From the NCBI RefSeq assembly GCF_012911005.2, contig NZ_WTVS01000039.1, positions 1 to 55,146 on the forward strand: a DNA stretch of 55,146 bases. The letters are read 5' to 3'. The DNA comes from Aromatoleum toluolicum. GTDB taxonomy: Bacteria > Pseudomonadota > Gammaproteobacteria > Burkholderiales > Rhodocyclaceae. The notes beneath the pieces were generated by a model. It saw only the letters and a program-made list of their open reading frames with translations. It searched no databases and was not told the origin of the DNA. Made by a program: the position numbers and the translations under genes. Below, one piece after another: positions 46,771-55,146 of this stretch (the first letter of the stretch is position 1; each line of letters starts with the position of its first letter).

Positions 46771-47694
46771 TCAGGCGGAGCGCGTCGCCGCCAGCCAGGC
46801 CTCGTAGCCGCCCTTGAGCGGACGCGCCGCGGCGTAACCCAGGTCGCTCAGCACATGCGCGGCACGCACCGCAGTCGCGTCGCCGGGACAGGCGCACATT
46901 GTCACGATGAGCCGCTCGCGCGGCCAGTCTCCTACCGCGTGCAGGAGGTTGTCGATTTCGGCCGCGCGCGCGCCGTCCACCGCCCCCTTGGTCGCGATCA
47001 GCGCCGCACCGCGCAGGTCGAGGAACAGCGGCGGCACGTCGGACTCCATCGCCGCGATCAGTTCGGATGGCGTGACATGCGGGATCGCCGCGAGCTTCTC
47101 GAAGCGGTAGCGCTGCCACAGCTTCCACGCGATCCATCCGCCCAGCGCAAGCGCCAGCAAGGCGATCATCGTCGAACCGTGGCGGCTCATCGCCGCAAGC
47201 GCGGTCTGCACCTCGTCGCGCAGCCACCAGCCGGCGAGAATTGCGCCCCCCGCCCACAGCGCGGCCCCGGCAGCGGCCGCCGCCAGGAAGCCGGGCAGCG
47301 GCATGCGCAGCGACCCGGCGATGGGCGGCGCGACGGTCGAGAAGCCGGGCACGAACTTCGCGACGACCAGCGACCACACGCCCCAGCGCATGAAGCGCGC
47401 CTCGGTCTGCGTTACGCAGGAACCAGGATTGAGCGATAGCCGGCACAGGCCGGACAGCACGCGATAGCCGAAGATGCGCCCGGCGAGATACCACACCCAG
47501 TCGGCGACGACCGAGGCCGCCACCGCTGCGGCGAGCATCACGCCCGCCTGGCCCGAGCTTGCCGCGAGGCTGCCCGCGACCAGCAGCGTCGGCACCGCCG
47601 GCACCGGCAGGCCCAGTTGCTGGAGCAGCACATTGACGAACACGACCCAAACCGCGTCACGCTGGATCGCTTCGGTAATCTGGCTGAGATCCAT
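46771..47694 (-). CDS. DedA-family membrane protein fused to a rhodanese domain
   Basis: A 307-residue inner-membrane protein. Residues about 1-190 are a DedA/VTT domain (QQLGLPVPAVPTLLVAGSLAA, VADWVWYLAGRIFGYRVL, RFMRWGVWSLVVAKFVPGFS, STVAPPIAGSLRMPLPGFL). Residues about 205-300 form a rhodanese-like sulfurtransferase domain (LFLDLRGAALIATKGAVDGA). Its active-site loop is CACPGDATAVR, placing a Cys at the catalytic position. Such fusions are known but their substrate is not. Start ATG 47694 with a GGAGG site upstream. It converges on the prs-like gene with 12 bases between. Confidence 0.88.
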   Translation of the reverse strand: MDLSQITEAIQRDAVWVVFVNVLLQQLGLPVPAVPTLLVAGSLAASSGQAGVMLAAAVAASVVADWVWYLAGRIFGYRVLSGLCRLSLNPGSCVTQTEARFMRWGVWSLVVAKFVPGFSTVAPPIAGSLRMPLPGFLAAAAAGAALWAGGAILAGWWLRDEVQTALAAMSRHGSTMIALLALALGGWIAWKLWQRYRFEKLAAIPHVTPSELIAAMESDVPPLFLDLRGAALIATKGAVDGARAAEIDNLLHAVGDWPRERLIVTMCACPGDATAVRAAHVLSDLGYAAARPLKGGYEAWLAATRSA

Positions 47695-47733
47695 CACGCC
47701 CCTCCCGGCGTCGCCGGGGAGCTCCAAATGAAG

Positions 47734-48318: not shown

Positions 48319-52032
<3,714 letters not shown>

Positions 52033-52080
52033 GGTTCTACCTCGGTCGATTCAAGCACCGGGCGGAAGCCGCAGGAGCGC

Positions 52081-52130
52081 ACAAAAGCAAACGGCGCGGC
52101 AAACCCCGGTGTTGGTTTGCGAGCGCCGTT
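52081..52130 (-). terminator. transcription terminator that overlaps the SAH riboswitch
   Basis: On the minus strand AACGGCG (52130-52124) pairs with CGCCGTT (52096-52090). Inside it GCAAACC (52120-52114) pairs with GGTTTGC (52105-52099). GCTTTTGT follows at about 52088-52081. The first strand shares 52126-52124 with the pseudoknot element of the aptamer, so ligand binding should weaken the terminator. Confidence 0.7.
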
Positions 52131-52181
52131 GTTCGGTTGCCGAGCCTGGCCCGCAATTGATCGGGTCGCAGCGCTCCTCGG
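52121..52181 (-). ncRNA. S-adenosylhomocysteine (SAH) riboswitch aptamer
   Basis: On the minus strand the sequence runs CCGAGGAGCGCTGCGACCC ... GGGCCAGGCTCGG ... AACGGCGCTC, the SAH riboswitch core. The P1 stem is CCGAG (52181-52177) with CTCGG (52144-52140). The P2 stem is CCCG/CGGG around ATCAATTG. The pseudoknot is GAGCGC (52176-52171) with GCGCTC (52126-52121). SAH riboswitches are known upstream of ahcY, metH and metF in beta- and gamma-proteobacteria and activate on SAH accumulation. Confidence 0.92.
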
Positions 52182-52191
52182 CAAGCGGGTG

Positions 52192-52220
52192 ATTCTATGG
52201 AATTTTTCCGCCGGTGCCAA
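52192..52220 (-). promoter_or_regulatory. metH promoter, near-consensus sigma-70
   Basis: On the minus strand, TTGGCA (52220-52215) and TAGAAT (52197-52192) are separated by exactly 17 bases. Transcription should begin at about 52185, immediately before the first stem of the SAH aptamer. Confidence 0.75.
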
Positions 52221-52235
52221 GCCGGTGGGGGGACA

Positions 52236-55146
52236 CTACATCAGCTCGCGCCAGTACACCCGGCGCCACTTCGTCGGCGGGCTTCCTGCCATCTCCGGAA
52301 TCGTCGGATTCTTGACCGTGCGATCGGACATGCGAATCAGCGCGCGCTTGCCGGACGAGGTCTCGACGATCACCGGCCGGCTGCCCAGCGCATTGCCGAG
52401 ATACCAGCCGCTCTCGAAGGTATCGCTGCCGCTCGTCGAGCGCCGCACCGCGCCGCCCGTGTCGGCATCGACGGCAAAGAACCAGCTCGAACCGCCCGGA
52501 TCACAGATCGCGGTGGTCGGGACGTTGACCGTGAACACCAGCACGCCCGTCGTGGTGACCGCCGGATGCGTATTGATGCGCCCGTTCGCGATCGGAAGAT
52601 CGAAGTACCAGCCCTTGTTGGCAGTCTGCAGCGTGTTCGTCGTCAGCGTGAAGGTGCCGCCCGAGGAGCTCGCGACGCGCTGGCAGACGAAGTCGCCGTT
52701 GCCGCCGTTGCCCGGACAACCCGCACCATTGCTGCCACGAATGTCGGGAAGCGTCGGCGTGGCGACGGTCGTGTCGTCGATGATGCCGTACATCGATTGC
52801 GTCTGGGTCGCATGGGTGTTCACCGGCGTATTTCCCGGGACGTCGCTGTTGCCGAGATATTGGCCCGTTCCGACATAAACATAGAATTTGTCGCTGCTGC
52901 CGCGCACTTGCCGGACGACCGGAGCGGAGGTCACCGGCTGGGCGGCACCGCCACCGTCGGCGAGCGCCGCGATTTTCGTCGCCGACCAGTTGGCAAGGTC
53001 GAAGCGCCAGACATTGCCGAGGAGGTCGCCGCCGTATACGAAGCGAGTCATCTGGTCGGCTGCGGCGTTGCTGAGGCGGGCGAGATGGGTCAGCCCCGCG
53101 GGCAAAGAGGGCGAGCCAGCGGGGGTCGCGATGTGCCGCAGCACCGTGCCGTCGCGCGGGTCGAGCGCCCACACGTGACCGAGACCGTCGCCGCCACCGC
53201 TCGTGCCGTTGTTGTAGCCGGATGTCACGAGCACGACCCAGCCGTCGCTGGGCGTGCGCACGATCAGCGGCGTGCCGAAGCTGAAGCCGCTGTCGGCCGC
53301 CGGGGTCTTTTCCCACAGCACCTTGGCTGCGGCAGCCGTCTCGCTCGCCGCGGTGCCGTCGCTGATGTCCAGCGCGTAATACCCGGTCCCGCCCTTGCCC
53401 AGCCCGCCGACGAGGATCTTGCGTCGGAAGCCAGACACGTCGACGTCGGCGACCGCGGGCGTCGCATCGACGAAATATTCGTGCGCGTAAGTCGGCTCGG
53501 CGAGCTTCCACAGACGCGAATGCAGCATTCTCGGCACGTAGGCCCACAGCTCGCTGCCGCCGGCAGTGCCCGTGCCGCCGTCGAAGGCGTGCACCATCCC
53601 GTCGTTGGCACCCTGATAGACGACAGTCGAACTGCCGTAGCTAACGATGGCCGGCTCCGCGTTGATGATGTCGCCCAGCAGGTGTTGGCGACGGCGATAG
53701 ATTGAGGCCTCGCCGGAACGGTCACCGCGCAGATAGTCGATGACGCCAGTGGTGAGGCCGATCGCGTCGTTGCGGTAGTTTGCGCCGGTGAACGCGCTGC
53801 CGCTGCTGCCGGTGTAGGAGACGATCCTGCGGCTCGACTGCGGGCTCGCGAGCGCGTCGAGCCGCGCCTGCGCCGACCACAGGCGCGGGGTGATCGGCAG
53901 GCCGCTCGCGAGGTCGAGTGAGAAGGCCTCGAGATCGCCGGTCCAGTAGCCCGACGTGAAGCTCGACGCATAGCTGGTGTTGTTGGTCGTGAGCTGCGTG
54001 CTCGTGACTGCGACCGCGGCGGCCGCACTGTCCTTGTCGAGCGCGTCGTTGAGCGCGCCGACGAAGGCCCGCGTCAGGGATTCCTCGTTTTCGGCGGAAA
54101 GGAACAGCCCGCCGCCCTGGCGCGCCGTCTCCTGCATCAGCGGGTCGTTTAGCGCCTGGCGATCGGCGAAACCCACCGTATAGGTGCGCAGGTTGTTCAC
54201 CGACGCCTGTCCGCCCGGCGCGGAGAGGTCGGGCCGCAGGTCGGTCTCGAAGAGCGCCTGCGCGACGTCGTCGAGGTAGTCGCTACCCGCGCTCTCGTAA
54301 CTGTGTGCGCCGCCGAGGTGCCCGGTGTGGTTCGTCGCCGCGCCGCCGTTCTTCTGGTCGTAGGCCCTCGCGCCGCTCGTCGTGCAGCTCCCGCTGTCGC
54401 CGTCGTAGTCGCACAAGTGCTCGTTGTTCGACAGGGCCTGGTCCTGCTGCGGGCGCCCGTCGGTCATCAGCACGGCGATCGAGCGCTGGCACCAGTACTG
54501 CACCGGGCAGGACAGGCCGGAGCAGCCCGTCGGCAGGGTGCCGCTCAACCGGTGCGGCGCCGACGTGCCCTGCTTGAAGAGCTGCGCGATGCTCACGGTC
54601 GTCGGCGTCGTGGCACCGGGGTGTATCGTCAGGTTGCCCGAGTAACCGAGCGTGAAGAAGTGCCCGACGTCGGCAAGCGTTTCCGCGAGCGGCGTGCTGC
54701 CGGTGGCAGCGAGGCCGTCGATGCTGGACTTGAGATCGGCAAGGTGCGACGAGCCGAGATTCGCGAGCCCGCGCACGAGGAGGCCGCCGTCGTCGCCGTT
54801 GTAGGTCGTCAGGCCGACACGGGCCTTCACGGTGGTCGCCGTGGTCTGCAGGGGGATGGTGTCGAGCGCGGCCTTGGTGGCCTTCTTTGCGATCTCCAGG
54901 CGCGTCCGCGTATCCGGCTTGCGGTCACCCCAAGCGGTCAGCGTGCCGATGCGAAAATACCAGTTGAGGTAACGGCCGGCGTACTCGGCGGGCAGGTAGG
55001 AGGCTCCCGCCGCGGTGCGGCAGTTGGTGCCGCAACTCTGCTGCGTGGCGAGCAGACGCACGTCCGGATAGACCGCGTCATCGACGAAACATACTTGCCC
55101 CGCCGCCGTGCCGACATCACAGCCGCTCGTGCAATCGGTACTCGAC
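52236..55146 (-). CDS. PilY1-like type IV pilus tip/assembly protein (5' end cut by window edge)
   Basis: About 970 residues are visible, open to the right edge. The visible N-terminal part is a von Willebrand-factor A type region, with TGSTPLAETLADVGHFF, IAVLMTDGRPQQDQ and many cysteines, but the first metal-binding DxSxS lies outside. From about residue 480 a PilY1 beta-propeller follows: STVVYQGANDGMVHAFDGG, KILVGGLGKGGTGYYALDI, RFVYGGDLLGNVWRFDLAN, VYVGTGQYLG. The aspartate-rich calcium loop that usually precedes the YVYAGDLLGN motif is replaced by LSNAAADQMTRF. Two PilY1 roles are known, pilus biogenesis and surface sensing. Downstream are the metH promoter and riboswitch. Confidence 0.9.
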   Translation of the reverse strand, partial: SSTDCTSGCDVGTAAGQVCFVDDAVYPDVRLLATQQSCGTNCRTAAGASYLPAEYAGRYLNWYFRIGTLTAWGDRKPDTRTRLEIAKKATKAALDTIPLQTTATTVKARVGLTTYNGDDGGLLVRGLANLGSSHLADLKSSIDGLAATGSTPLAETLADVGHFFTLGYSGNLTIHPGATTPTTVSIAQLFKQGTSAPHRLSGTLPTGCSGLSCPVQYWCQRSIAVLMTDGRPQQDQALSNNEHLCDYDGDSGSCTTSGARAYDQKNGGAATNHTGHLGGAHSYESAGSDYLDDVAQALFETDLRPDLSAPGGQASVNNLRTYTVGFADRQALNDPLMQETARQGGGLFLSAENEESLTRAFVGALNDALDKDSAAAAVAVTSTQLTTNNTSYASSFTSGYWTGDLEAFSLDLASGLPITPRLWSAQARLDALASPQSSRRIVSYTGSSGSAFTGANYRNDAIGLTTGVIDYLRGDRSGEASIYRRRQHLLGDIINAEPAIVSYGSSTVVYQGANDGMVHAFDGGTGTAGGSELWAYVPRMLHSRLWKLAEPTYAHEYFVDATPAVADVDVSGFRRKILVGGLGKGGTGYYALDISDGTAASETAAAAKVLWEKTPAADSGFSFGTPLIVRTPSDGWVVLVTSGYNNGTSGGGDGLGHVWALDPRDGTVLRHIATPAGSPSLPAGLTHLARLSNAAADQMTRFVYGGDLLGNVWRFDLANWSATKIAALADGGGAAQPVTSAPVVRQVRGSSDKFYVYVGTGQYLGNSDVPGNTPVNTHATQTQSMYGIIDDTTVATPTLPDIRGSNGAGCPGNGGNGDFVCQRVASSSGGTFTLTTNTLQTANKGWYFDLPIANGRINTHPAVTTTGVLVFTVNVPTTAICDPGGSSWFFAVDADTGGAVRRSTSGSDTFESGWYLGNALGSRPVIVETSSGKRALIRMSDRTVKNPTIPEMAGSPPTKWRRVYWRELM

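Follow-up and report, generated by a model that had tools for sequence, protein, structure and literature searches.

The window, a stretch of 55,146 nucleotides from Aromatoleum toluolicum, carries on its minus strand the gene metH, which encodes cobalamin-dependent methionine synthase and is preceded by a leader with a promoter, an SAH riboswitch aptamer and a terminator-like hairpin that shares one strand with the aptamer. The features of the locus are as follows.

52192-52220, minus strand: sigma-70-like promoter, TTGGCA-N17-TAGAAT (consensus scan, 10/12)
52114-52185, minus strand: SAH riboswitch aptamer, RF01057 (65 bits, E 9.1e-10, full model)
52178-52184, minus strand: P1 5' strand, UUGCCGA (Rfam alignment; covariation in relatives)
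52169-52176, minus strand: pseudoknot 5' strand, GAGCGCUG (sequence; pairs kept in relatives)
52137-52143, minus strand: P1 3' strand, UCGGCAA (Rfam alignment; covariation in relatives)
52121-52128, minus strand: pseudoknot 3' strand, CGGCGCUC, of which bases 1-6 also belong to the terminator (sequence; conserved)
52090-52130, minus strand: terminator hairpin with outer arms AACGGCGC (52130-52123) and GCGCCGUU (52097-52090) and inner arms GCAAACC (52120-52114) and GGUUUGC (52105-52099) (-23.9 kcal/mol; kept in relatives)
52082-52089, minus strand: U-tract, UGCUUUUG (sequence; in the 44 aligned leaders, T is at least 90% conserved at three positions)
52040-52043, minus strand: probable ribosome-binding site GAGG, with the ATG 7 nt downstream (read from the sequence)
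48319-52032, minus strand: metH, cobalamin-dependent methionine synthase, 1237 aa (TIGR02082 1699.7 bits, PRK09490 2110.7 bits; solved relatives)

The metH frame is full-length, scores far over the cut-offs of both TIGR02082 and PRK09490, and lies directly 3' of the aptamer, which is thus sited in the leader of a methyl-cycle gene as expected of an SAH riboswitch. The promoter is present as the initial annotation had described it, with TTGGCA at 52220-52215, a 17-nt spacer and TAGAAT at 52197-52192; sites of this grade number two in 7 kb when both strands are scanned, against 0.3 in shuffled sequence, and six bases separate it from the aptamer. Flanking the locus on the same strand are a gene for a PilY1/PilC-like pilus tip protein (52236-55146, open at the window end, with an NCBIfam match below cut-off) and a single frame (46771-47727) in which a DedA-like membrane domain is followed by a rhodanese-like domain, both below NCBIfam cut-offs.

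RF01057 is the only Rfam family that matches over its cut-off anywhere in the window, and the alignment, running from 52185 to 52114, spans model positions 1-78. The initial annotation had named an SAH aptamer core here and proposed this very model as its check; the match, with 65 bits where the gathering threshold is 37, bears it out. The P1 and P2 helices and the pseudoknot are all present, the last formed by GAGCGCUG and CGGCGCUC through eight standard pairs, one G-U among them, worth -13.1 kcal/mol as a bare duplex. Judged by its sequence, the element is an SAH riboswitch of the known class that senses the waste product SAH, an ordinary and well-built member with nothing different in the aptamer.

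Overlapping the 3' part of this aptamer is a 15-bp hairpin that reads, in order, AACGGCGC-UC-GCAAACC, a loop of eight bases and GGUUUGC-C-GCGCCGUU, followed by UGCUUUUG. Six bases, CGGCGC (52128-52123), are common to the pseudoknot strand and to the hairpin's 5' arm, and because of this overlap the terminator and the pseudoknot are mutually exclusive. The overlap of a terminator strand with the pseudoknot had been recognised from the start, whereas the extent of the arm had been drawn too short: the outer arm is the eight-nucleotide AACGGCGC, and the stem is seven pairs longer. The conflict between the two structures, likewise anticipated, is visible in the shared strand and kept in 62 of 80 metH leaders under the strict test given below. 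With the pseudoknot strand held, the inner hairpin alone is left, at -9.5 kcal/mol, so that before any ligand 14.4 kcal/mol is lost (-23.9 to -9.5) against 13.1 gained, a balance that ignores the loop cost of the pseudoknot; as the loss of the outer stem is about equal to the pseudoknot gain, the energy of a bound ligand could tip it. The order of synthesis also fits a switch, the pseudoknot strand being finished 31 bases ahead of the terminator's last base.

Folding energy alone and simple terminator scanning were dropped as ways of judging the hairpin: the 121-nt leader has an unexceptional fold energy (z -1.72, equalled or bettered by 13 of 200 shuffles), and the hairpin at 52130-52090 is absent from the output of a simple consensus scan, we think because of its internal loop. 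Right after the terminator, GCGCUCCU (52080-52073, minus strand) forms an eight-base complement to AGGAGCGC of the aptamer (52178-52171), in some members of the genus only. We assign no role to the second GCGCUC that it contains (52080-52075), which pairs with the aptamer in the centroid fold, since some members of the genus lack it and, by the time it is transcribed, the termination decision has been taken.

Together, these elements make it very probable that metH is under transcriptional control by an SAH riboswitch acting as an ON switch. Transcription would begin near 52185, as the promoter implies, and the aptamer would be made first. With SAH present, the aptamer would be stabilised and its pseudoknot would hold CGGCGCUC (52128-52121), so that the eight-base outer 5' arm of the terminator would lose six bases and a 7-bp hairpin would be left; as this remnant would not stand directly before the U-tract, polymerase would read on into metH. 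Without SAH, the shared strand would be captured by GCGCCGUU (52097-52090), the 15-bp hairpin would form just before the U-tract, and transcription would stop. What the sequences show is the aptamer match, the complementary pseudoknot strands, the hairpin and the strand it shares, the gene, and conservation; from these, taken with the published class, we infer the ON direction, SAH binding, SAH dependence and termination efficiency.

The arrangement was then followed through related genomes. In the Aromatoleum toluolicum genome (6.16 Mb in 289 contigs) RF01057 matches twice, once before metH and once before ahcY; the model matches in 17 of 17 genomes of the genus, twice in 16 of these, and in 187 of the 199 genomes of the family that were searched, compared with 0 of 14 controls. 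A typed-pattern search for the terminator in the species genomes returned 102 stretches, and among the 80 matches listed the genera include Aromatoleum, Azoarcus, Thauera, Zoogloea, Azospira, Azonexus, Denitromonas and Dechloromonas, which we take to belong together in Rhodocyclales. For a test of the platform we used 172 loci picked by the aptamer alone (60 among the matches listed and 112 fetched), which tblastn assigned to metH in 80 cases and to ahcY in 92. The strict test demanded that a downstream arm form at least seven contiguous pairs with the AACGGCGC-type strand of 8 nt and that the ten bases after it include at least four T, the expectation being taken from 100 dinucleotide shuffles per locus. 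It was passed by 62 of the 80 metH leaders against 2.45 in shuffles, and by three of the 92 ahcY leaders against 0.49 expected; eight contiguous pairs with a T-rich tail occur in 55 of the 80 metH leaders against 0.69 after dinucleotide shuffling. All 16 metH leaders from the genus (L001, L033-L047) pass, and with 16 of the 80 coming from the window's own genus the 80 rows are not independent.

The 18 metH leaders that fail the strict test do so in different ways. Three (L008, L013, L031) retain the outer arm with one mismatch or a weak T stretch, five (L023, L079, L088, L090, L091) have a shorter form of the terminator, L070 has lost the outer arm, and nine (L021, L112, L134, L138, L153, L161, L162, L163, L166) carry a different platform. 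The five with the shorter form belong to one genus (g40) and have GACGCUC as the shared strand, with GAGCGUUG as its aptamer partner; its terminator partner is GCGUU in four of the five and GCGUC in the fifth. Both partners follow the change in the shared strand. Conversely, the metH-type hairpin is present in three ahcY leaders (L006, L103, L152), the T stretch of L006 being too poor for the strict test. These cases suggest an exchange of platforms between metH and ahcY. A further ahcY leader, L164, passes the strict test and also has the usual ahcY motifs. Inspected by eye, six metH leaders (L138, L153, L161, L162, L163, L166) have an ahcY-like platform in which GGTC before the ribosome-binding site faces GACC at an ATGACC or GTGACC start; a script count found the ahcY-like start hairpin among metH loci in L138, L153 and L161 only, a count biased by its requirement for a helix. 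The terminator-type metH frames that were inspected start with ATGC, and one with GTGC.

Covariation was assessed in an alignment of 44 of the 80 metH loci, from which the nine leaders with other platforms, near-identical rows and rows with no 3' arm were left out and in which L070 was kept. The core aptamer columns are invariant among these relatives; across aptamer and pseudoknot, 96.9% of cells are paired and eight pairs have changed on both sides, with 35 cells showing such two-sided change against 8.4 in shuffles. In the terminator, 95.2% of cells are paired and four pairs have changed on both sides, all of them in the inner stem, giving 12 two-sided-change cells against 3.8 shuffled; the covariation score is 0.116 against 0.094 shuffled (reached by 0 of 500) and at most 0.059 when the arms are slid. 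Further terminator pair types show no excess in the 44 leaders (11 against 10.6 in shuffles), and none of the outer eight pairs has changed on both sides there, so that conservation of the outer arm could partly reflect the aptamer. The support for these eight pairs comes from their conservation and from the strict arm test, in which real leaders exceed shuffles. All eight pseudoknot pairs are standard in 80 of 80 metH leaders and 66 of 92 ahcY leaders (seven are standard in 25 further ahcY leaders and four in one, which is mis-set), a count that makes a weak test because the anchors GRGCGYTG and CGCYC already fix part of the strands; among the ahcY rows, L150 is mis-set and L027 and L100 probably are.

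These data bear on three other explanations. The best of them, which we consider unlikely, holds that the aptamer senses SAH and acts mainly through translation or Rho, the hairpin being a pause or stability element. Although the hairpin and U-tract are sited between the promoter and metH, where an attenuator belongs, UGCUUUUG is interrupted by GC, and a platform without a terminator is found in nine of the 80 metH leaders of the family and in the ahcY leader of the same genome. Against this, the arm with its T-rich tail marks metH leaders in particular (62 of 80, against three of 92 ahcY leaders), and the probable metH ribosome-binding site (52043-52040) lies outside the hairpin, 46 bases beyond it. 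Very improbable is a second explanation, in which the hairpin is the ordinary terminator of the PilY1/PilC-like gene and the aptamer incidental or degenerate: that gene does end on the same strand at 52236, 15 bases before the promoter, yet the hairpin lies downstream of the metH promoter, is built from the pseudoknot strand and stays in place among genus members whose sequence 5' of the promoter varies, and we rejected it on these grounds. The most remote of the three is an aptamer that now binds a different ligand or that switches metH OFF, for although the ligand is predicted from sequence, the match is full-length at 65 bits, the core columns are invariant, and the geometry would give an ON response with any ligand that stabilises the pseudoknot. 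SAH-dependent transcriptional activation of metH is thus the reading we retain.

The second SAH riboswitch of the genome, before ahcY and outside the window (L002:1501-1660, contig C233), lacks the metH-type terminator. Its leader has an anti-pseudoknot helix, an RCCGGG hairpin, CCCGGYCACA before the ribosome-binding site and CUGUGRC in the start-codon region. Three motifs recur in an alignment of 52 of the 92 ahcY leaders (short leaders, L006, L103, L152 and near-identical rows having been dropped): a hairpin that follows the pseudoknot strand contains RCCGGG, the ribosome-binding site is preceded by CCCGGYCACAG, and CUGUGRC lies in the start-codon region. Counted from fixed alignment columns with no helix required, the Y of CCCGGY and the start-region base are C-G in 27 of the 52 leaders, T-A in 14, T-T in four, C-A in two, C-T in one, T-G in none and others in four, while the R of RCCGGG and the Y are G-C in 30, A-T in nine, G-T in nine, A-C in none and others in four. 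Among relatives, then, Y covaries with each of its two partners, and these bases connect the leader with the start-codon region. By paired cells and by covariation score, no shuffle out of 500 reaches either helix; the number of RCCGGG-helix pairs changed on both sides is not above shuffles (379 of 500 reach it). On the protein tree the Y changes at least 11 times, and the tree test of its covariation is not significant (four independent pairs on supported branches, of which on average 3.6 agree and none oppose, median p 0.125), the other helix giving two pairs, 1.3 agreeing and none opposing; with four supported independent pairs, ancestry weakens the covariation evidence.

The ahcY platform differs from that of metH and is apparently translational. 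As a lead, we propose a relay in which, without SAH, the pseudoknot strand would pair downstream and RCCGGG would be locked in its hairpin, leaving CCCGGYCACAG free to pair with CUGUGRC and close the start site; with SAH, the released RCCGGG would capture CCCGGY and the start site would open. Folding with the pseudoknot blocked, carried out for six leaders (five ahcY, one metH), gave start hairpins that were clearly weaker in L002 (1.0 to 0.22), mildly weaker in L128 (1.0 to 0.71) and L123 (0.99 to 0.78), hardly changed in L156 (1.0 to 0.93) and not weakened in L111 and L163. For L002, pairing of the start codon fell (0.65 to 0.42) and that of the ribosome-binding site rose (0.45 to 0.63), a mixed result that lowers the odds of the relay. 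We accordingly grant somewhat less than an even chance to the tentative reading that, within one genome, the same SAH aptamer is joined to a different platform for each gene, namely intrinsic termination at metH and a translational relay at ahcY. A separate variant is seen in nine ahcY leaders (L032, L081, L098, L099, L107, L110, L121, L139, L141), where the pseudoknot is compensated, GGGCGCTG with CGGCGCCC; in eight of these (not L139) a CATTCA..TGAATGGAG hairpin comes next and would directly cover the ribosome-binding site. Control of metH apparently by termination and of ahcY apparently by translation, within one genome, could show why levels of control differ.

For metH itself, the finding in the window mostly confirms known biology: the RF01057 consensus, P1, P2, pseudoknot and methyl-cycle gene of the class are as in this leader. 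The class-founding paper, Wang et al. 2008 (Mol Cell), reportedly concerned the SAH riboswitch of Dechloromonas aromatica, likewise in a metH leader and from a related bacterium. SAH riboswitches are on record for three groups of gamma- and four of beta-proteobacteria; the core targets are ahcY and metF, and metH is a target in Comamonadaceae (PMC4239095). The class and its link to metH are thus already published in the regulon account of that paper, the part drawn on here, which covers the regulon and not the terminator geometry of this metH leader. The affinity cited for SAH riboswitches is a Kd of 20 nM, with SAM bound at least 1000-fold more weakly, in a 2024 assay paper that employs a split aptamer named Dar1 (PMC11188199). 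Closer to the geometry seen here are the crcB (fluoride) and pfl (ZTP) riboswitches, in which the terminator also overlaps the 3' region of the aptamer although aptamers and ligands differ; for the crcB and pfl RNAs this overlap led to the expectation that expression rises with ligand (PMC2864571), and competition with the terminator is described for the ZTP riboswitch (PMC10907184). Beside these systems, the metH leader stands as a clean, naturally occurring ON-switch layout: six bases would serve two partners, and most of the metH leaders examined in the family keep this arrangement.
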